A DNA stretch of 64,000 nucleotides from Oceanicola sp. 22II-s10i. Lineage in GTDB: Bacteria; Pseudomonadota; Alphaproteobacteria; Rhodobacterales; Rhodobacteraceae. The translations under genes and the position numbers were made by a program. The stretch is from NCBI RefSeq assembly GCF_002210105.1, contig NZ_AQQU01000001.1, forward strand, positions 1,462,501 through 1,526,500. Reading direction: 5' to 3'. Below the pieces are notes generated by a model, which made no database searches, was not told the origin of the DNA, and saw only the letters and a program-made list of their open reading frames with translations. This document shows positions 28,197 to 37,198 of this stretch, piece after piece; the stretch's first letter is position 1; each line of letters begins with the position of its first letter.

Positions 28197-28322
28197 GTGT
28201 CTTCTCCTGCGGCGGGACGGGTAGCGGCCCCGCGAAATCTCACGAAGCATGCCTTTTACCCGGGATCAGGCGCGAGTCAACCGGGGATCGGGTGGATTTC
28301 GGCGGAAAATCGGAGGGGGAAG

Positions 28323-28392
28323 GAGGGGGGCCAGCCCCCCGTCGGCCCATGGGGGCCGACTCCCCCCGGAGTTTATCGGGCCAGATGAACGA
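28323..28392 (+). repeat. Dispersed hairpin-tail repeat, copy 4 (subfamily II)
   Basis: GGGGGGC-CA-GCCCCCC, then a second stem GTCGGCCC-ATG-GGGCCGAC, then the tail CCCCGGAGTTTATCGGGCCA with GATGAA. The tail matches the one at 36311-36331 almost exactly. It lies between the 3' end of dtd and the rpmG 5' region, both on the minus strand. Confidence 0.75.
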
Positions 28393-28404
28393 GGGGATCC
28401 GGTT

Positions 28405-28848
28405 TCAGGTGGCAGTGTCGAGCCAGATTGTGACCGGGCCGTCGTTGGTCAGCGAGACCTGCATGTCGGCGCCGAAGCGGCCGGTTTCGACCTTGGGGCC
28501 GAGCGCGGCGAGGGCGCGGGCGAAATGCTCGTAGAGCGCGTTGGCGAGGTCGGGGGCGGCGGCGCCGGAAAAGCCGGGGCGGTTGCCGCGCGAGGTGTCG
28601 GCGGCCAGCGTGAACTGGCTGACGACGAGGGCTTCGCCGCCGGTGTCGGAGAGGGCGCGGTTCATCTTGCCCGCTTCGTCGTGGAAGATGCGGAGCCTGG
28701 CGATCTTGGCGGCGAGGCGGTCCGCCGTCGCCTCGTCGTCGCCGGGCATGGCGCAGACGAGGATCAGCAGGCCGGGGCCGCACTGGCCGACGATCTGACC
28801 ATCGACGCGGACGGCGGCCTCGGTCACGCGCTGGAGCAGGGCACGCAT
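28405..28848 (-). CDS. dtd: D-aminoacyl-tRNA deacylase
   Basis: Hydrolyses D-aminoacyl-tRNAs, and glycyl-tRNA(Ala), to protect translation from D-residues. The 147-residue protein has the family start [17 protein letters not shown], the SQFTL motif at residues 78-82, and the cross-subunit NDGPVT motif at about 135-140. Length is standard. The nitroreductase gene ends 5 bp upstream, so dtd is probably the last gene of that operon. A D-amino acid catabolic cluster lies 2 kb away, which gives a loose functional echo but no evidence of coregulation. Confidence 0.96.
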
Positions 28849-28853
28849 CCCGG

Positions 28854-29549
28854 TCAGCCGCGCATGTCGAGGATGTCGGCCAGCGGCGCGCGGTCGGTGC
28901 GGAAGCCGTTGGCGGGATGCGATGTGTCCTCGTAGCCGAAGGTCAGCGCGCAGAGCACCATGCGGTCCTCGGGGATGGCGAAATGGTCGTGCAGCATCGG
29001 CGCCATTGAGGCGACGGCGGCCTGCGGGATGCAGCCCACGCCCGCCGCCTCGGCCGCGAGGCAGAAGGCGAGGATGAAGCCGCCGCAGTCCATCGCGCCG
29101 TAGGGGCCAAGCTCGGTGCCGGAGGTCAGGATCGCCGTATGCGGCGCGCCGAACAGGCGGAAGTTCTCGGCGGCCTGTTTCGCGGACCCGGCCCGGTCGC
29201 CCTTGGTCACCCCGACGGCATCGTAGAGCTGCCAGCCGCAGGTCCGGCGGCGTTCCTGGTGCTGGCCGGTGTAGGCCGAGGGGAAGGGCAGGTCGGGCCT
29301 GCCGCCCTCGGGGCTGCCCATGCCGGCGAGGAGCTTGTCGCGCAGGATGTCGGTTTCCGCCGGACGGGTCACGATGACCTGCCAGGGCTGCGAGTTGCAC
29401 CACGACGGGGCGCGGCCCGCCGTCTCGACGATCCTGGCGATCACCTCGTCCGGCACCGCGTCGGGCAGGAAGCCCCGGCACGAATGGCGGCGGCGCAGGA
29501 GGGTGTCGAGGCTGTCGAGTTCTGTCATCTGTAGGTCCATTCCGTTCAT
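28854..29549 (-). CDS. Nitroreductase family protein
   Basis: FMN-dependent NAD(P)H oxidoreductase of about 231 residues. The phosphate-binding RRRHSCRGF and the segment [19 protein letters not shown] are typical of nitroreductases; a [15 protein letters not shown] stretch and the C-terminal [17 protein letters not shown] complete the fold. Substrate unknown. The start is uncertain: ATG 29549 overlaps the preceding stop as ATGA, which fits translational coupling; ATG 29528 (MTELDSLD) is also plausible. It lies between the zinc-ribbon gene and dtd. Confidence 0.9.
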
Positions 29550-30631
29550 CCGTTCTGTGCCGCGAAATAGCCGATCACGCCCGCGACGATCAGGCCGAGG
29601 ATCACCGCGAAGGCGATCTTCCACGCCGACCACGGCCGTTCGCCCTGCACCCGGCCCGTGCGGCCGTTGACCACGAAGCGGTAGGTCTGCCCGCGATACT
29701 TGTAGGCGGCGAGCCAGACGGGCAGCAGCACGTGCTTGAAGGTCACGTCGCTGATCGCGGTGTTGATCCCGTGCACCCGCTGCGCGTCGCCGCCGATGTC
29801 GAACTTGACGTCCCGTTCGATCACCCGGTCCATGTGCTGGCGCGCCTCGGTGTAGCCGTCCTCCAGCTCCACCTGATAGGCCTCGGCCTTGAACCCGGCG
29901 AGGAACTCGGGGCGGTAGGGCTCCATCGCCGCAAGGTCCCAGGGTTCCAGCGCGTCCGTGTAGCGTTTCGGCAGCGAGCGCGACGCGAGGACCAGAACGT
30001 CGTCGAAGAAGCGGGCGACCCGGCCCGCGGCAGGACGCCAGCGGATCTTCTGGACCTGCACCTGCTGGGGCTTGCCGTCGCGCATGACGGTCCGGGTCTC
30101 GTAGTAGATCGTGCCGCGTTCGCCGGAGTAGCTGGACTTGGTGTCTGCGTCGAAGGTCCAGTAGGGGACGTAGATGCCCTGCATCTTGCGCCCCTTGCGG
30201 GCGTATTCCTGCAGACCGTTGGGCGCGAACCAGAGCCCGCCCAGCCAGTCCGTCATTGCCTTGCGCGCGTCGGGTTCGTTCAGGGCGAAAGGCAGGACGC
30301 CCTTGGGCTTGATCTGCCTGTGGGTGCCGGTGCCGGTGACCACGGGGGTGGCGCAGAACGGGCATTCGGTGGCGTGGACGTCGGTTTCGAATTCGATCAG
30401 CGCGCCGCAGTTCGGGCATTTTGAGGTGCGCTGTTCCTCGGTCTCGGCCTCGGGCAGCCGGGCCTCGATCGCGGCGCGGAAGTCGAGTTCCCTGATTGCC
30501 GGGACATGGGCCTGCGTGCCTTCCATGGGCTCGGTATGGCCGCAGAAATCACAGACCAGCTGGCCTGCCGCGGGGTCGAAACGGTAGTCTGCCCCGCAGT
30601 TCGGGCAGGGAAATCTGTGGTCGTCGCTCAT
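29546..30631 (-). CDS. Double zinc-ribbon protein with C-terminal membrane helix (YdjG-like)
   Basis: A 361-residue protein with two zinc ribbons: Cys9, Cys12, Cys27, Cys30 and Cys72, Cys75, Cys90, Cys93. A middle domain with [20 protein letters not shown] and [20 protein letters not shown] follows, then one membrane helix (about 335-357) near the C-terminus. These features match the 'TFIIB-type zinc ribbon / primosomal N'-like' proteins related to Bacillus YdjG, which works with an SPFH protein (YdjI) and PspA in membrane stress. The C-terminal helix suggests it is anchored with the zinc ribbons in the cytoplasm. Here an SPFH gene lies two genes upstream, supporting the comparison; no pspA is in the window. 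Confidence 0.82.
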
Positions 30632-30731
30632 CCGTCTCCCCCGGTCGTTTCGGGGCCAAGCTAGTGTGACCGCGCGCCGAGGGAAACCGGGAAACGCGCG
30701 GGCCTGACGGGCAGGCCCGGCTGCGGCCGGC

Positions 30732-31208
30732 TCAGACCCGCGACCCGCCGGGACGCATCCGGGCGAGCAGGTTGTCCTTGAGCACGAACTGGTGATAGAG
30801 CGCCGCCGCCGTATGGGCGAGGATGGCAATGATCAGCAGGTTGATCAGCACCTCGTGCAGGTCCGCCGCGATGTCGAGCCGCAGGTAGAAGGCGAAGCCG
30901 CCCGCCCAAGGTCCGAGGATCGCCAGCGCGTAGATCGCCCAGTGCGTCAGGGTCGCCGCCCTGCGCTGCCACTTCGGATCGCTGGCCGGGGGCGGCGGTG
31001 CGCCGAGCCAGAGGCGCAGCAGCAGGCGCAGGATCATCAGGAAGAAGACACTGAGGCCGAGGATGCCATGCAGTGGCAGCGCGGCGGTGGCCGGCAGCTT
31101 TTCGTAGCCGTGCATCTGGTCGCCGAGCAGCCATGCCCCGGCGATAAGGACGAGGATCAGCCAGTGCAGGGCGATCTGGATCAGCGAGTATCCCGTGCGC
31201 GTGGTCAT
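30732..31208 (-). CDS. Cytochrome b561 family protein
   Basis: Inner-membrane dihaem electron carrier of 158 residues with four predicted helices. Candidate haem-ligand histidines are His15 (ALHWLILV), His47 (LPLHGILG), His118 (DLHEVLIN) and His132 (LAHTAAAL), matching the bacterial b561 (CybB) pattern. Relatives oxidise quinol or superoxide or serve as quinone reductases. It starts 3 bp after the SPFH stop, so the two are cotranscribed, an unusual pairing that suggests a redox role next to an SPFH membrane scaffold (inference). Confidence 0.92.
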   Translation of the reverse strand: MTTRTGYSLIQIALHWLILVLIAGAWLLGDQMHGYEKLPATAALPLHGILGLSVFFLMILRLLLRLWLGAPPPPASDPKWQRRAATLTHWAIYALAILGPWAGGFAFYLRLDIAADLHEVLINLLIIAILAHTAAALYHQFVLKDNLLARMRPGGSRV

Positions 31209-31211
31209 GGC

Positions 31212-32336
31212 TTACATCCCCGGAGGCGGCGGCGGCATGATGGTGAAGAGCTGGGCCAGTTCGGCCACGTCCTCGGCCTTTTTCCAGCCGTCCTGACCGG
31301 CAGTCCAGACGTAGGTTTCGCGGGTCAGCTTGCCGTCGGTGACCATCCGCCCGAGCGACGCCTTGGAGAAGGGGCCCGAAGTCTGGCCGTTCTCGGCGAT
31401 GTGCCAGACATGTTCGACCGGCGGGGGTGGCGGCGGGGCCGCGGCTGCGGGCGGCTGTTGCGCTGCGGCCGGGGCAGCGCCCCACGGGCCCTGCTGGCCG
31501 AGCGCCGCGCCCATGGCCATGCCGATGCCCGCGCCGATCCCTGCGCCCATGCCTGAGTTCGGGGTCTCGGCCGCCTTGCCGAGCGCTTCGGCCGCGGCGA
31601 ACTGGGTGTACTTGCCGAGGTCACCGACGATTCCCATCGAGGTGCGCTTGTCCAGCACCTCCTCGACCGCGGGCGGGAGCGAGATGTTCTCGACGTAGAG
31701 CTCGGGCATTTCCATCCCGTAAGACGACAGGGTGCCGGAGATCTCCTTGGCCACCAGCTTGCCGAGGTCACGGGTGTTGGCCGCCATGTCGAGCACCGGA
31801 ATGCCCGATCCCGCGATCACGCGGCTGAATTCCTGCACGATGATGTTGCGGATCTGGAAGCTGATCTCGTCCATCGTGAACTCGCCGTCGGTGCCGACGA
31901 TTTCCTGCATGAACCGGGCCGGGTCTGTCACCCGCACCGCGTAGGTGCCGAAGGCGCGCAGGCGGACCGGGCCGAATTCCGGGTCGCGGGCGATGATTGG
32001 GTTCTTGGTCCCCCACTTCAGATCGGTGAAGCGGGTGGTGTTGACGAAGTAGATCTCGGACTTGAACGGCGATTTGAAGCCGTGGTCCCAGTGCTGCAGC
32101 GTCGTCATGATCGGCATGTTGTTGGTCTCGAGCATGTAGAGACCGGGCGTGAAGACGTCGGCCAGCTGTCCTTCGTGGACGAAGACCGCCGCCTGACCTT
32201 CGCGCACCGTCAGCTTGGCGCCATACTTGATCTCGTGTCCGTGGCGCTCGAACCGCCAGACCAGCGTGTCGCGGGTGTCGTCGACCCAGTGAATGACGTC
32301 GATGAATTCGCCGCTCAGGAAATCGAAAATGCCCAT
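31212..32336 (-). CDS. SPFH-domain protein with C-terminal GYF_2 domain (YdjI-like)
   Basis: A 374-residue protein. Residues about 20-250 form an SPFH/band-7 domain of the 'virion core protein' type (VREGQAAVFVHEGQLADVFT; PGLYMLETNNMPIM), without an N-terminal membrane helix. Gly/Ala-rich and Pro-rich linkers (about 255-310) lead to a GYF_2-like domain (WHIAENGQTSGPFSKASLGR ... TYVWTAGQDGW), a peptide-binding module. SPFH proteins form membrane-associated scaffolds; the Bacillus relative YdjI acts with PspA and YdjG. It is followed at 3 bp by cytochrome b561 and probably shares a promoter upstream at about 32370-32395. Function in this genus has not been seen described. Confidence 0.88.
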   Translation of the reverse strand: MGIFDFLSGEFIDVIHWVDDTRDTLVWRFERHGHEIKYGAKLTVREGQAAVFVHEGQLADVFTPGLYMLETNNMPIMTTLQHWDHGFKSPFKSEIYFVNTTRFTDLKWGTKNPIIARDPEFGPVRLRAFGTYAVRVTDPARFMQEIVGTDGEFTMDEISFQIRNIIVQEFSRVIAGSGIPVLDMAANTRDLGKLVAKEISGTLSSYGMEMPELYVENISLPPAVEEVLDKRTSMGIVGDLGKYTQFAAAEALGKAAETPNSGMGAGIGAGIGMAMGAALGQQGPWGAAPAAAQQPPAAAAPPPPPPVEHVWHIAENGQTSGPFSKASLGRMVTDGKLTRETYVWTAGQDGWKKAEDVAELAQLFTIMPPPPPGM

Positions 32337-32367
32337 GATGCAATCCTTTCAGGCCCGGTCGTCGGGA

Positions 32368-32395
32368 ACTATGGCAACTTTTCCGGCCCCTGCAA
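32368..32395 (-). promoter_or_regulatory. Candidate sigma70-type promoter for the SPFH operon
   Basis: On the minus strand TTGCAG (32395-32390) and CATAGT (32373-32368) are separated by 16 bp, about 30 bp before the SPFH start. Match is moderate and alternative alignments exist. Confidence 0.3.
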
Positions 32396-32412
32396 AGACG
32401 GGGCGGTTCGTG

Positions 32413-32811
32413 TCAGAACCACAGATCGGCCACCCTGCGGCCGTCCGGGGGTAGATCGTCGAACGTGTGCAGCCCGTCGAACCGGGCCAGCGGCAGATCG
32501 GCCACGGCATCGGGATCCGTGGCCATGCGCAGGTTGGCCGCCAGCTTGCGGCGACCGAGCGGGCCGGGTTCGCGTTCGATGTAGTGGGTCAGGCATCCGC
32601 AGGTCGGGCAGAAGCAGAAATCGCTCGGCCCGCCAAAGGTATAGGTGCGCGTTGCTCCGCTGACGGTCACGACGCTGTCGGCCCAGCCGTAGATCCAGAG
32701 CGCCCCGTAGCGGCGGCAGATCGTGCAGTTGCAGCTGGTCGCGTCATCCGGACGGCCCGCATAGGTCCACCGGACCGCGCCGCAGTGGCAGGCGCCCTCG
32801 ATCACGGTCAA
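32413..32811 (-). CDS. GFA (glutathione-dependent formaldehyde-activating-like) family protein
   Basis: Zinc-binding protein of 132 residues in the GFA/CENP-V family. The ligand set is complete: Cys8 and Cys10, Cys27/Cys29/Cys32, and Cys68/Cys71 (CHCGAVRW; SCNCTICRRYG; FCPTCGC). Most family members have no confirmed formaldehyde function, so the name is not a functional claim. Translation probably begins at TTG 32811 (or GTG 32805), 4 bp after the stop of the DUF2927 gene, since upstream in-frame codons overlap that gene. This makes it the last gene of the TelA operon. Confidence 0.85.
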   Translation of the reverse strand: MTVIEGACHCGAVRWTYAGRPDDATSCNCTICRRYGALWIYGWADSVVTVSGATRTYTFGGPSDFCFCPTCGCLTHYIEREPGPLGRRKLAANLRMATDPDAVADLPLARFDGLHTFDDLPPDGRRVADLWF

Positions 32812-32815
32812 CGGT

Positions 32816-33769
32816 TCAGCTCGGCCCGCCGGACAGCCCGGCGACGATCTGGGAAACGATCGGGCGCGCCTGGTCGGGCGACATGCCGGGGCGCAGGCGG
32901 GGATCGTAGAGAATCCGCAGCAGCATCTCGTCATGGGTGGTCAGCAGCGCGAACTCGTCGTCGTCGTTGAAGATCGACGGCCGCGCCTCGGGGCTGTCGT
33001 TGGCCAGGCCGAGGCCCTGTGCCAGTTCCTCGTGATAGCATGACTTGCGCATAAGGTCGGGATGTTCGGCCCGGACCAGCGCGATGGCACGGCGGTATTC
33101 GTAATCCGTGCCGCTGCCCGAGAAGGCGACGACGAGGCAGTGGATCGACCGCGGCAGGGTGCGGAAGATGTCCAGCGCGTTCTCCGAGATGTTGGGCACA
33201 AGCTGGCGGATGCGGGCAACGGCCTGGGGGCGTTCGTCCTCGTTCATCACAAGGATGTTGAAGTTGGCGGTGGAGGCGACGGGCGTGACGAGTATCGAAT
33301 GTCCCGTCAGCCGGGCCAGCCGTGCGGCATAGCCCGCGACGGTGCGCCGGTCCTCGTCGCGCACGTCCTGCGGAACGCTCGGCCCGAACTCCACGGCCAT
33401 GCGCACCGGCACCGACCAGCGGCGCAGGTGCGAAGGCGAATCCTTGGCCACGCGCAGCCCGGCCCCGCGCGCATATTCGTCGTAAAGCGCGATGCGTTCG
33501 AAGTTCCGCGCCAGCATGGCCGCGGTATAGGGCGTGTCCACGCCGCCGCCGTCCTGCCGCAGCAGGCCCTGCACCAGCAGATCGGCCTGCACCCGCGCGT
33601 AATAGGTGCTGAGCTCCTTCGACGCGGCCGAAGGCTCGGCCGGTTTCGCAGGCGGGACCAGTGCCGCCGGGCGTGCCTGTGGCGTCACCCGCGGGGACGC
33701 GGTTTCGTCACAGGCCGCCAGCAGTCCAAGGACCGCGAAGGCCGCAAATAGCGTCCGGCGTGTGCCCAC
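32816..33769 (-). CDS. DUF2927 lipoprotein, possible metalloprotease-like
   Basis: A 317-residue predicted lipoprotein. The signal ends in a lipobox LAAC with Cys20; a Pro/Ala-rich linker follows to about residue 50, then one DUF2927 domain. The conserved CYHEELAQGLGLANDSP (His246, Glu247) and THDEMLLRILYDPRLRPGM (His279, Asp280) stretches resemble metal-binding sites, as in zincin-like proteins with an HExxx start, but the full HExxH is absent. Rhodobacteraceae often carry several DUF2927 genes of unknown function. It starts 10 bp after telA, indicating an operon. Confidence 0.85.
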   Translation of the reverse strand: MGTRRTLFAAFAVLGLLAACDETASPRVTPQARPAALVPPAKPAEPSAASKELSTYYARVQADLLVQGLLRQDGGGVDTPYTAAMLARNFERIALYDEYARGAGLRVAKDSPSHLRRWSVPVRMAVEFGPSVPQDVRDEDRRTVAGYAARLARLTGHSILVTPVASTANFNILVMNEDERPQAVARIRQLVPNISENALDIFRTLPRSIHCLVVAFSGSGTDYEYRRAIALVRAEHPDLMRKSCYHEELAQGLGLANDSPEARPSIFNDDDEFALLTTHDEMLLRILYDPRLRPGMSPDQARPIVSQIVAGLSGGPS

Positions 33770-33779
33770 CCCTGTTACC

Positions 33780-34976
33780 TCACGCCTGCGGGGGAACTGC
33801 TGTGGCGGCGGAATCGCCCAGCCCGGTCGACCGCGCCTTGGCGGATGCCAGCGTATCGCGCAGTTCCGCCTCCATCTTCTTCAGCTCTTCCTCGGCGGCG
33901 GCGCGCTTGGCCTTGCCTTCGTCCGCGATCTGCAGGCTTTCCTGGATCGTGCCGATCAGGTCCGCGTTGGCCTGTTTCACCGCCTCGATGTCGAAGACGC
34001 CGCGTTCCATTTCCTGACGGATCACCTTGTTGGTGTCGCGCAGGTTCTTGGCATTGGCGGTCAGCAGTTCGTTGGTCAGGTCGTTCGCCTCGCGCACGGC
34101 GCCGGCGGCTTCGGCGCTGCGCTGGATGGTCACCGCCTGTGCCAGCTGGGTTTCCCAGAGCGGCACGGTGTTCACCAGCGTCGAGTTGATCTTGGTGACC
34201 AGCGACTTGTCGTTCTCCTGCACCAGCCGGATCGAGGGCAGCGACTGCATCGTCACCTGCCGGGTCAGCTTCAGGTCGTGCACCCGGCGTTCGAGGTCGT
34301 CGCGCGCCGCGCGCAGGTCGCGCAGCTCCTGCGCCTTCATCACCTGGGCCTCTTCCGGCGCGGCCTGAACCTCGGCCTCCTTGGCCGGGATGTCGCCTTC
34401 GTCCAGTTCCTTCAGCTTCTGCTCGCCCGCCGCGATGTAGAGCGCCAGTTCGTCGTAGAAGTTCAGCGTCTTGTCATAGAGCATGTCCAGCGACTTGATG
34501 TCCTTCATCAGCGTGTGCTCGTGCTTCAGCAGGTCGTCGGTGATCCGGTCGATCTGGCCCTGCACCTCTTCGAACTTGGCCGTGAACTTGGCGAAGGGCG
34601 CGGCGCGGCCCAGCAGACGTTCCCAGAAGGACCGTTCCCGCCGGACGTCCAGTTCGGAGACCGAGAAGCCCCGGATCGTCGTGACGATGTTGCGCAGGCT
34701 GTCGCCCGCGGGGCCCACGTCCTTGTTGCGGACGTCGGCGAGCATCGCCTGGCTGATCTCCTGCAGTTCGGCCTGCGCGGCAGAGCCGAAGGACACGATG
34801 GAGTTCGTGTCGCTCATGTCGAGTTCCGCCATCCGGGTGCGGATCGCGTTGGCGGTGCTGTCGTCGGCGCCGTCATAGGTCACGACGTCCGTGGACGGTT
34901 CGGGCAGGACGACGGCGGTGACTTCCTCGACCATCTTTCCCGATTCGGCGGCCTTGGCGCGCACGGTCTCTGACAT
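33780..34976 (-). CDS. TelA/KlaA toxic anion resistance family protein
   Basis: A 398-residue, largely helical cytoplasmic protein with long coiled-coil stretches. Family features include SDTNSIVSFGS near residue 50, ERSFWERLLGRAAPFAKFTA (about 115-134), a Glu-rich middle segment and a C-terminal region of repeated amphipathic helices ending KKMEAELRDTLASA. TelA proteins were named for plasmid tellurite resistance and are linked in Bacillus to envelope stress and lantibiotic or antimicrobial tolerance; the molecular function is not known. The ATG at 34976 has GGAG 8 bp upstream, inside the end of the xpaC-like gene. Operon with XpaC is conserved in Bacillus (xpaC-yaaN). Confidence 0.9.
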   Translation of the reverse strand: MSETVRAKAAESGKMVEEVTAVVLPEPSTDVVTYDGADDSTANAIRTRMAELDMSDTNSIVSFGSAAQAELQEISQAMLADVRNKDVGPAGDSLRNIVTTIRGFSVSELDVRRERSFWERLLGRAAPFAKFTAKFEEVQGQIDRITDDLLKHEHTLMKDIKSLDMLYDKTLNFYDELALYIAAGEQKLKELDEGDIPAKEAEVQAAPEEAQVMKAQELRDLRAARDDLERRVHDLKLTRQVTMQSLPSIRLVQENDKSLVTKINSTLVNTVPLWETQLAQAVTIQRSAEAAGAVREANDLTNELLTANAKNLRDTNKVIRQEMERGVFDIEAVKQANADLIGTIQESLQIADEGKAKRAAAEEELKKMEAELRDTLASAKARSTGLGDSAATAVPPQA

Positions 34977-34981
34977 GTCCC

Positions 34982-35881
34982 TCACTCCATGTTGGCGGGC
35001 GCGCGGACGCCCTCGCGTTGCAGTCGTTCTCTCAAGACGTCGATTTCGACCGTCAGGTCGGTGCGGTCGTCGCCCAGCAGTTTCTGGGTCCGGGCCGCGA
35101 AGTTCTCGTCCAGATCGGTCAGCAGCGACTCGTATTGCGCGCGGGCCGCGGTGCTCTTGTTGCGGGTGTAGACGTCGACGAACTTCACCGTCGCGTCACG
35201 CGCACCCATCAGGTAGACGCCCAGGAACTTGCGGGCGGCGGTCAGGTCGCGCGGATCGTTCTCGACCGTGCGGATCATTTCGCGCGCACGGGCGTCGAAG
35301 GCGGCGACGCGACCGGTCAGGGCGCGGTCGCGCAGGGTCGCGATCTGGCTTTCGATGGTCCTGAGGTAGGCTTCGGCCTCGTCCACCACGCGGGCTACGC
35401 GGTCCTGCTGGAACTGGTCGATTCCCTCGGCATTCTTGTCACGAAGCGGATCCGGCCCGAAGCTGGCCAGGTGCAGTGCCCCGGTGACGACGGCGTAGAT
35501 CGCGGCATGCAGCGGCGCGGCGCCGTGGATGCCGGCGGCCAGCCCGGTGCCGAGCGCGATGGAGACCGAGCCGAGTATCTTTCGCGGCAGGGCGGGACGG
35601 CGGGCGATCTTGCGCGCGTCATATGCGGCCTCGGCCCTGAGCCCCTCGCGCGTCAGCCACGCGCCGAGCCCCCACAGACCGGCGCCGACCAGACCGAGGG
35701 CAAGTCCGACGGCCCCGGCGCCCACCGACATGAAAGCCAGAATCACGGGCGGCACGAAAAGGATATTCGACCGCGCCCCTGCGGGATCGGGCCGCGCGGC
35801 AGGCCGCTGCGGCGCTGGGGCCGCGCCTTTCTGCGGGCCCTTTCCGTCGGGGCTGAATTCTCCGCCGAATCGCTGCGCCAT
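34982..35881 (-). CDS. XpaC family membrane protein
   Basis: A 299-residue protein of the XpaC ('5-bromo-4-chloroindolyl phosphate hydrolysis') family; the old name reflects a plate phenotype, not a shown enzyme. A Pro/Ala-rich N-terminus (1-38) is followed by hydrophobic segments at about 40-75 and 103-140. A long helical, coiled-coil-prone cytoplasmic region (about 160-290) contains FQQDRVARVVDEAEAYLRTI. It begins with ATG 35881, overlapping the stop of the preceding small gene as TGATG, and ends 5 bp before telA. The pairing with TelA matches Bacillus. Confidence 0.85.
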   Translation of the reverse strand: MAQRFGGEFSPDGKGPQKGAAPAPQRPAARPDPAGARSNILFVPPVILAFMSVGAGAVGLALGLVGAGLWGLGAWLTREGLRAEAAYDARKIARRPALPRKILGSVSIALGTGLAAGIHGAAPLHAAIYAVVTGALHLASFGPDPLRDKNAEGIDQFQQDRVARVVDEAEAYLRTIESQIATLRDRALTGRVAAFDARAREMIRTVENDPRDLTAARKFLGVYLMGARDATVKFVDVYTRNKSTAARAQYESLLTDLDENFAARTQKLLGDDRTDLTVEIDVLRERLQREGVRAPANME

Positions 35882-36081
35882 CACTCGGCCCCCACCCAGC
35901 CGGTGGCGACGCCCGTCATGATGACGATCAGCAGCACGTAGGCGACCTTCTGGATGGCAGAGCTCCGCCGTGCCGGCAGGGTGCCGGAGCTGGCCGAAGG
36001 CTTGCTCCACGCCGATGCGATGAGCGAGGCCGCCGCGACGAGGGCGGCGAGAAGGACGATCACGAGGATCAGGCGGGACAT
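35881..36081 (-). CDS. Small two-helix membrane protein
   Basis: A 66-residue protein not recognised as a known family. It has an N-terminal membrane helix (RLILVIVLLAALVAAASLIA), a short basic loop (PARRSSAIQKV) and a second helix (AYVLLIVIMTGVATGWVG). Its stop overlaps the XpaC start (TGATG), so it is translationally coupled and is the first gene of the xpaC-telA operon. By position it could be an accessory membrane subunit of XpaC (inference). Confidence 0.8.
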   Translation of the reverse strand: MSRLILVIVLLAALVAAASLIASAWSKPSASSGTLPARRSSAIQKVAYVLLIVIMTGVATGWVGAE

Positions 36082-36299
36082 GTATCCCTCCGCCAGACTG
36101 TAGCTGTCGGCAACATAAGCACCGATTCACGGCGGCGCCAGTATGCAGTCCGTGACGACAGACCTGCCGGTGTTTCGCCGCCACTGCCTCATGGCGGGCC
36201 GTGTGACGGTGAGCGACGTGGCCGGCAGGCCGGAGCGTGTTGATGCCGGGCGAAATCGCCGCCGAATTCCGCCCGCAGGGGGCGGCCTTCGACGGCGAT

Positions 36300-36336
36300 G
36301 CCTCCGGCGGGAGTTTATCGGGCCAGATGAAGGCGG
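36300..36336 (+). repeat. Dispersed hairpin-tail repeat, copy 5 (subfamily II)
   Basis: The tail CCGGCGGGAGTTTATCGGGC with CAGATGAAGGCGG matches copy 4 almost base for base across AGTTTATCGGGCCAGATGAA. The upstream G/C-rich stem (about 36271-36299) is more diverged than in copies 1-4. It abuts the 3' end of rluB, as copy 4 does with dtd. Confidence 0.7.
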
Positions 36337-36337
36337 A

Positions 36338-37198
36338 TCAGGTCCGGCGCGGACGCCGTTGCGTGGGTTTTGGCTTGGGCGGCTCCTCGGGGGCCATGCC
36401 GAGCTGGTCGCGCAACACGCGGGGGCGGACTTCCTCGACCGCTCCGGGTTTCAGCTGGCCCAGCTGGAACGGTCCGTAGGACAGGCGGATCAGGCGGTTC
36501 ACCGTCAGTCCGATGGCCTCCATGGCGCGGCGGATCTCGCGGTTCTTGCCCTCGCGCAGGCCGATTGTGACCCAGGCGTTCGCCCCCTGCTGCCGGTCGA
36601 GCGTGACCTGCATCGGCTGGAATTTCTCGCCGTCGACCGTGGTGCCCTTGCGCAGCGGTTCGAAATCCTCGTCCTGGGGCCGGCCATTTACCCGGACCCG
36701 GTATTTCCTGAGCCAGCCGGTCGAGGGCAGTTCCAGCTTGCGCTTGATCTCGCCGTCGTTGGTCAGCAGCAGCAGCCCTTCGGAATTGAGGTCCAGCCGC
36801 CCGATGCTCATCACCCGCGGCATGTCCTCGGGCAGCTCGTCGAAGATCGTCCGGCGGCCCTTGTCGTCCCGTGCCGTCGTCACCAGCCCGGTCGGCTTGT
36901 GGTAGAGCCACAGCCGCGCCGGTTCCGGCGCCTCCAGCGGCTTGCCGTCGACGGTGACCTTGTCCCTGGCGGTGACGTTCAGCGCGGGGCTGTCCAGCAC
37001 CTTGCCGTTCACGCTGACACGGCCCTCGGCGATCATCTTTTCCGCGTCGCGGCGCGAGGCGATGCCGGCGCGCGACAGCACCTTGGCGATGCGGTCGCCT
37101 TCGGGGCCGCTCTTCGGCGGATCCTTGGGCGCGGGCGCGGCGGTTCTGGGGCGCTGCGGGCGCGCGGGACGCGGGGGACGTGCGGGTTTGTCGGCCAT
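36338..37198 (-). CDS. rluB: 23S rRNA pseudouridine synthase, RluB/RsuA type
   Basis: Makes pseudouridine in rRNA. The 286-residue protein has a basic Pro/Ala-rich N-terminal extension (1-34), an S4 RNA-binding domain (about 36-95, KVLSRAGIASRRDAEKMI) and a catalytic domain with GRLDLNSEGLLLLTNDG, whose Asp136 is the nucleophile. It is in the RsuA/RluB/RluE/RluF group; RluB (position 2605 in E. coli) is the best guess, with RsuA or RluF less likely. The ATG at 37198 is divergent from tadA, 75 bp apart. Confidence 0.88.
   Translation of the reverse strand: MADKPARPPRPARPQRPRTAAPAPKDPPKSGPEGDRIAKVLSRAGIASRRDAEKMIAEGRVSVNGKVLDSPALNVTARDKVTVDGKPLEAPEPARLWLYHKPTGLVTTARDDKGRRTIFDELPEDMPRVMSIGRLDLNSEGLLLLTNDGEIKRKLELPSTGWLRKYRVRVNGRPQDEDFEPLRKGTTVDGEKFQPMQVTLDRQQGANAWVTIGLREGKNREIRRAMEAIGLTVNRLIRLSYGPFQLGQLKPGAVEEVRPRVLRDQLGMAPEEPPKPKPTQRRPRRT

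Follow-up and report, generated by a model that had tools for sequence, protein, structure and literature searches.

The locus analysed here raises the question why xpaC-telA genes and an SPFH/double zinc-ribbon gene pair, whose Bacillus counterparts lie in separate operons, stand in one row in the alphaproteobacterium Oceanicola sp. 22II-s10i. The row occupies positions 28405-36081 on the minus strand of a 64,000-nucleotide stretch of DNA (the window; positions 1,462,501 to 1,526,500 of contig NZ_AQQU01000001.1, here contig C1 of a 5.1-Mb genome). TelA and XpaC are described in the available part of PMC12791056 as widespread proteins whose mechanism is not known, and the part played by SPFH and zinc-ribbon proteins in the Bacillus Psp network is incompletely understood; no paper describing a TelA-XpaC-SPFH block was found in the open-licence papers searched. 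Four genes, encoding XpaC, TelA, an SPFH protein with a GYF_2 domain and a double zinc-ribbon protein (ZnR), were found to form the conserved core of the row and to be co-inherited, and we give about an even chance to the reading that this operon encodes a membrane-attached assembly protecting the cytoplasmic membrane. The joined block makes it testable in the genetically tractable Rhodobacteraceae whether TelA works through an SPFH platform.

Core genes and their conservation in Rhodobacteraceae

All core genes are on the minus strand. XpaC (34982..35881; PF10112, 86.4 bits) stands immediately before TelA (33780..34976; PF05816, 362 bits) and makes up an XpaC-TelA pair with it. The third core gene encodes the SPFH protein (31212..32336), which consists of a Band_7_1 domain (PF13421, 343 bits), a proline-rich linker, a GYF_2 domain (PF14237, 77 bits) and a polyproline tail, and the fourth encodes ZnR (29546..30631; Zn_ribbon_RRN7, 34 bits), a YdjG-like protein with two zinc ribbons and a C-terminal membrane helix. 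Behind TelA lies the gene of a predicted DUF2927 lipoprotein (32816..33769, minus strand, GTG start; PF11150, 217.6 bits), a family-level addition to the core.

Conservation was analysed in 121 genomes of one family, the Rhodobacteraceae. TelA was detected in 119 of them (118 full-length copies and one short degenerate match, in G085) and a Band_7_1 SPFH protein over the cut-off in 117; G011 and G106 were without a clear copy of either, and G081 had TelA without SPFH. Both genes were present in 117 genomes, and in 115 of these SPFH was located downstream of TelA on the same strand at a distance of no more than 4 kb (median inter-domain distance 1.1 kb); the exceptions were G110, with a 13.6-kb gap between the two, and G048, where they lie on different contigs. 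Same-strand neighbours were then counted in 60 family loci taken around TelA. SPFH was present in 59, XpaC in 58, DUF2927 in 56 and ZnR in 53 (4 of the 7 loci without ZnR are near a contig end), and the accessory neighbours were dtd (42), a small transmembrane protein (26), cytochrome b561 (16), a nitroreductase (14), TerC (11) and a GFA-family protein (2). The conserved row of the family is xpaC-telA-DUF2927-SPFH-ZnR, and the ten-gene form of the window is therefore one decorated version of it.

The sequence-only reading had taken the TelA/XpaC and SPFH/zinc-ribbon genes together as one envelope-stress system and had suggested a survey of Rhodobacterales for a conserved neighbourhood; the counts above show such a neighbourhood, the linkage is not limited to this strain, and it extends to other Alphaproteobacteria, Gammaproteobacteria and Campylobacterota (see below). 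The same reading went too far in treating all ten genes as one system with a redox arm, as only the four core genes and, at the family level, DUF2927 are kept. A ten-gene functional unit was rejected because the accessory genes come and go among the 60 loci, and a redox arm belonging to the core was rejected on the counts for b561, nitroreductase and GFA.

Distribution outside the family

A class-wide sample of 190 genomes contained 187 Alphaproteobacteria from outside the family. Strong TelA matches (>200 bits, a limit chosen after the scores had been seen) were obtained in 12 of the 187 and strong Band_7_1 matches in 6, all within the 12 (hypergeometric p 1.7e-8, kinship ignored). TelA and SPFH were adjacent in 4 of these 6 genomes, in the row XpaC-TelA-SPFH-ZnR with differing flanks (L062-L065); DUF2927, b561, nitroreductase, GFA and TerC were not found in these four loci, and the row is without dtd.

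From a search of named genomes with the SPFH alignment, which gave at least 584 loci, the best 80 were used; they come from many phyla and are biased toward the SPFH type of the window. By NCBI names 50 of the 80 were classed as non-Rhodobacterales; among these TelA was found upstream of SPFH in 25 and not in 21, and 4 were too short. All four core genes in the same order were present in 21 of the 50 (6 alphaproteobacterial, 11 gammaproteobacterial, 2 from Campylobacterota and 2 unplaced); as L187 and L194, which are unplaced alphas, have DUF2927 and Rhodobacteraceae-like flanks and may belong to the family, the stricter figure is 19/48. The samples overlap in part (L180, L188, L161 and L172 are from the same genomes as G250, G267, G110 and G014). 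The Planctomycetota, Bacteroidota, Gemmatimonadota and Verrucomicrobiota loci had no TelA adjoining SPFH, and most of them had a ZnR.

A phylum-wide sample of 398 Pseudomonadota contained 53 genomes with SPFH at E <= 1e-12, 27 of them from outside the family; the loci of these 27 had a strong ZnR in 13 cases, a weak ZnR-like match (25-34 bits) in 9 and none in 4, and one was cut off. Of the two pairs SPFH-ZnR is thus spread more widely, and it would have been joined by XpaC-TelA in some lineages. Linkage of TelA and SPFH across Pseudomonadota in general was rejected on this sample. Two further observations concern the pair: a different zinc-ribbon protein of ~230 amino acids follows SPFH instead of ZnR in L159, L176, L190, L206, L214 and L215, four of them from Thermodesulfobacteriota, and an SPFH-ZnR pair lies on a Vibrio coralliilyticus plasmid (L225:1093-7154), near a TIR-domain gene and proteins of unknown role.

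History of the joining

Trees were calculated for SPFH (94 rows; TelA linked in 36, unlinked in 51, unknown in 7) and for TelA (48 rows, Firmicute TelAs not included; SPFH linked in 35, unlinked in 11, 2 left out of the count); both were quick trees with some long branches. Linkage required four changes on each tree. On the SPFH tree 35 of the 36 TelA-linked rows were placed in one 39-row branch (support 96), together with 3 unlinked rows and 1 unknown. The TelA tree grouped the SPFH-linked TelAs, and with them the unlinked rows L073, L077, L078, L080 and L081, in a single branch of 40 rows (support 100) that is separate from other alphaproteobacterial TelAs. Protein distances of TelA and SPFH were correlated over the 35 linked loci (r 0.70), which is partly expected from shared ancestry alone. 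As the linked copies form almost wholly one clade in both trees, the joining probably took place once or on a few occasions and was then maintained; the trees are read most simply as a single such event, or a small number of them, after which the block was long co-inherited, either vertically or by block transfer.

PspA, TPM and the Enterococcus row

At E <= 0.001 neither PspA (PF04012) nor TPM (PF04536, YdjH-type) was detected in the window genome. The window contains both a YdjI-type SPFH protein (Band_7_1) and a YdjG-type double zinc-ribbon membrane protein; as PspA and TPM were searched for and not detected at this threshold, the locus is classed as a variant of the SPFH/zinc-ribbon kind and not as a Psp system. 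PspA was also not found over the cut-off in 78 of the 117 family genomes with SPFH.

A relative of ZnR was identified in Enterococcus gallinarum by a search of a plasmid collection (28% identity over 98%, E 7e-34). It lies in the row SPFH-ZnR-TPM, in which Pfam assigns the third protein to TPM; the SPFH protein of the row has a Band_7_1 domain and, at its C-terminus, matches a double zinc ribbon weakly. A profile built on this Enterococcus protein found no TPM among the collected loci other than its own (L224). Since the row matches the Bacillus description, it ties ZnR to the YdjG arrangement. In Bacillus, YdjI is required for the recruitment of PspA to the membrane, as are YdjG and YdjH (PMC8581546, in the part available). 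In Listeria, LiaSR regulates the XpaC-TelA pair (lmo1966-1967) as well as a PspC gene; a mutant of the telA homologue is 4-fold more sensitive to nisin and 2-fold more sensitive to tellurite (available part of PMC12791056, citing Collins 2010 for the mutant).

Features of the core proteins

By hydropathy XpaC has a single clear hydrophobic stretch at 46-64, and more hydrophobic sequence was noted by eye; a helical domain follows. In a sequence search against solved structures only weak stretches of chains Tako8 and Ika8 matched (best E 1.2e-5). A second, divergent XpaC paralogue was seen upstream of XpaC in L098, L107, L113 and L138, and also in L194 and L197. TelA and SPFH were without a hydrophobic segment over the threshold. 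The AlphaFold2 model of TelA, of moderate confidence (pLDDT 81.4), has three long helices; no solved structure matched TelA by sequence at E under 0.2, and no Foldseek match to the model was obtained at E <= 0.001.

Solved structures matched the SPFH protein through its GYF part only (7z3c and 7rup; 7z3c is the GYF domain of gliding protein X, E 2.1e-9). GYF domains bind proline-rich peptides. A C-terminal tail containing PPP was present in 156 of 174 SPFH proteins (4 of 178 had been dropped as short or weak), and the 18 without it include apparently cut-off frames and other C-termini. The GYF_2 domain of the window protein may bind the polyproline tail of its own SPFH protein.

ZnR has two CxxC...CxxC ribbons, and the eight cysteines are invariant in 52 sequences. 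Its model (pLDDT 93.5) shows the two ribbons, strands of ~30 residues, an extended beta domain as the main body, and a C-terminal helix (336-360), which is strongly hydrophobic (segment 339-357). No solved structure matched by sequence at E under 0.09, and no Foldseek or VIA-align match to the model reached E <= 0.001 or Z >= 5; as mostly the first ribbon drew matches (Z about 4), the beta domain is unplaced and not thereby new.

The DUF2927 protein has a lipobox (LLAAC, by eye) and the motif HEExxQxxGxxND, present in 82 of 87 copies, which we take to be reminiscent of zinc-peptidase motifs with the second histidine replaced by glutamine.

Proposed working and alternative explanations

That the two halves have been kept as one block suggests that they work as one machine. 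From the role of YdjI toward PspA, the Enterococcus row, the absence of detectable PspA and TPM and the place of the Listeria pair in an envelope-stress regulon, we infer that XpaC-TelA is the working partner of SPFH-ZnR here. The soluble SPFH oligomer would be anchored by ZnR, through its C-terminal membrane helix and with its ribbons in the cytoplasm, and by the membrane N-terminus of XpaC. TelA, as a peripheral protein with long helices, would be gathered by this oligomer where the membrane is damaged or under stress, and the oligomer might be stabilized by GYF_2 domains that hold the polyproline tails of adjacent SPFH chains. XpaC-TelA would take the place held in Bacillus by PspA and the TPM protein YdjH. 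A bolder form of the proposal, which we consider doubtful, is a PspA-independent membrane-repair machine in which ZnR anchors SPFH rings that are locked by contacts between GYF domains and polyproline, and the rings load TelA as a membrane-acting polymer like PspA; if true, it would give a defined role to TelA, a family without a known mechanism.

Several findings weigh against membrane protection by a joint assembly. PspA is also present in 39 of the 121 family genomes, all 39 with SPFH, so its replacement is not general; replacement throughout the family was rejected on this count, and the claim holds for the window genome and for the 78 family genomes with SPFH named above. Conservation at the family level is weak evidence of function because the unrelated genes rsuA, tadA and dtd are also often kept beside the block. 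The best VIA match of the TelA model was a chimeric coiled-coil protein (Z 12.6, root mean square deviation 3.1, 209 aligned residues), followed in rows 2-11 mostly by alpha-pore-forming toxins (Z 11.1-12.5), all in a range common among unrelated helical models, and PspA/Vipp1 was not among the best 50 matches listed. TelA and SPFH lie apart in 2 of the 6 class-wide genomes with strong matches to both (G132 and G267), and TelA stood beside a strong SPFH in none of the 27 non-family Pseudomonadota (25 of them with at least 2.5 kb of upstream sequence), so the joint block is a minority arrangement; SPFH-ZnR and XpaC-TelA each occur alone in several lineages. Part of this evidence also speaks for operon accretion, which we hold to be rather unlikely and in which XpaC-TelA and SPFH-ZnR are independent small systems that came to lie side by side and use a common promoter for convenience, without acting together, with dtd, the nitroreductase and b561 added likewise. 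Besides the 0/27, accretion draws on the 21 of 50 non-Rhodobacterales loci with SPFH and no TelA upstream, on TelA-XpaC without SPFH in L070, L071 and L073, and on the retention of dtd in 42/60 family loci; however, the four genes keep order and strand across Alpha- and Gammaproteobacteria and Campylobacterota with different flanks, and the near confinement of linked copies to one clade in both trees is what would be expected of a functional unit that was kept.

A block serving metal loading or tellurite/oxyanion tolerance together with TerC, with secondary effects on the membrane, appears distinctly unlikely to us. Such a role would fit the name of TelA, the tellurite phenotype of the telA-homologue mutant, the metalation of exported enzymes by TerC (available part of PMC10550928) and the 11 family loci in which a TerC-family membrane protein heads the block (L082, L084, L089, L090, L095, L100, L102, L109, L117, L122 and L127; PF03741, 132.5 bits for the L102 copy). 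The nisin effect of that mutant was, however, the larger one, and TerC is absent from the operon of the window, whose genome has its own copy on another contig, and was not found in L062-L065. Least probable, and in our view very unlikely, is a regulatory or signalling role, in which the ribbons of ZnR bind nucleic acid or a regulator and ZnR is a membrane-tethered regulator with SPFH as its platform. The fold of the first ZnR ribbon is similar to that of ribbons in RNA polymerase subunits (best VIA Z 4.1, rmsd 2.3, 36 residues), an SPFH relative (L226) has an HTH_17 domain at its C-terminus instead of GYF_2, and a regulatory role has been proposed for the YdjG ribbon (available part of PMC9239133). 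Yet no regulated gene is known, and no DNA-binding match was seen for the extended beta domain that forms the main body of ZnR. Zinc ribbons are, moreover, common protein-protein modules.

Accessory genes and transcription signals

The remaining genes of the run are also on the minus strand. A small transmembrane protein of 66 amino acids with two hydrophobic stretches (35881..36081; hydropathy), for which no Pfam or NCBIfam match was obtained, precedes XpaC. A GFA-family protein (32413..32811, TTG start; PF04828, 40.1 bits) is an idiosyncratic insertion between DUF2927 and SPFH, and a small cytochrome b561 (30732..31208; PF01292, 77.9 bits) lies between SPFH and ZnR. ZnR is followed by a nitroreductase-family protein (28854..29549; PF00881, 93.9 bits) and by the housekeeping neighbour dtd, D-aminoacyl-tRNA deacylase (28405..28848; PF02580, 190 bits, TIGR00256 over the cut-off). 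The small transmembrane gene overlaps XpaC by 1 base and ZnR overlaps the nitroreductase gene by 4 bases; the gaps are 5 bases (XpaC-TelA), 10 (TelA-DUF2927), 4 (DUF2927-GFA), 76 (GFA-SPFH), 3 (SPFH-b561), 100 (b561-ZnR) and 5 (nitroreductase-dtd). Open reading frames, Pfam and NCBIfam confirmed the ten frames with the families first assigned to them from the letters, and the coordinates agree with the tight spacing described there, in which only the 76- and 100-base gaps are larger.

No sigma-70-like promoter was detected in 28200-36400 with a scan blind to other promoter types, so there is no consensus for a separate SPFH promoter; no shared promoter-like motif was seen by eye before SPFH in the 23 of 61 family loci in which its start was located (38 were dropped as the start pattern failed). 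An exact copy of a 22-base element was found at each side of the run, on the minus strand: at 36310-36331, 6 bases behind the frame of the upstream unit (a pseudouridine synthase, named from a reading of its frame), and at 28368-28389, 15 bases behind dtd. The genome has 7 exact copies (0 for a reversed control pattern), the next bases being GGGGGG or CGCCGGAG. Each of the 7 stands no more than 250 bases past a long open frame of its own strand, the five copies outside the window at 8 to 204 bases past the stop. The same can, however, be said of 1846 of 4000 random positions in the window, and so loose a test supports a 3'-end role weakly. The element may mark the 3' ends of the upstream unit and of the run, which would then be one transcription unit.

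Comparison with known systems

The Bacillus pspA-ydjGHI operon is described with band-7, double zinc-ribbon and TPM proteins (available part of PMC11237479; the terms TelA, XpaC and SPFH are absent from its main text). As in that operon, a Band_7_1 SPFH protein adjoins a double zinc-ribbon membrane protein in the window, a likeness of arrangement. Unlike it, the window genome is without detectable PspA or TPM, and XpaC and TelA stand in front; and whereas YdjI has a zinc-ribbon end (PMC11237479, in the part available), the window SPFH protein ends in GYF_2 and a polyproline tail.

A TelA operon with a von Willebrand factor A (vWA) protein (L067:5568-10289, L072:5247-10370, and L075) resembles the window in that TelA shares its row with a PF10112 protein (55.6 bits for the L067 copy). 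Its partners are not SPFH-ZnR but a vWA protein (L067) and proteins that are solute-binding-like by eye, with no Pfam match for the L075 copy. The window TelA belongs to a clade separate from the SPFH-unlinked alphaproteobacterial TelAs examined. In the Firmicute pairs (B. subtilis XpaC/YaaN and Listeria lmo1966-1967) the same two families lie side by side as in the window; unlike them, the window pair is joined in one block with SPFH-ZnR, and from this it may be predicted that Bacillus YaaN and YdjI, encoded in separate operons, could meet at the membrane.

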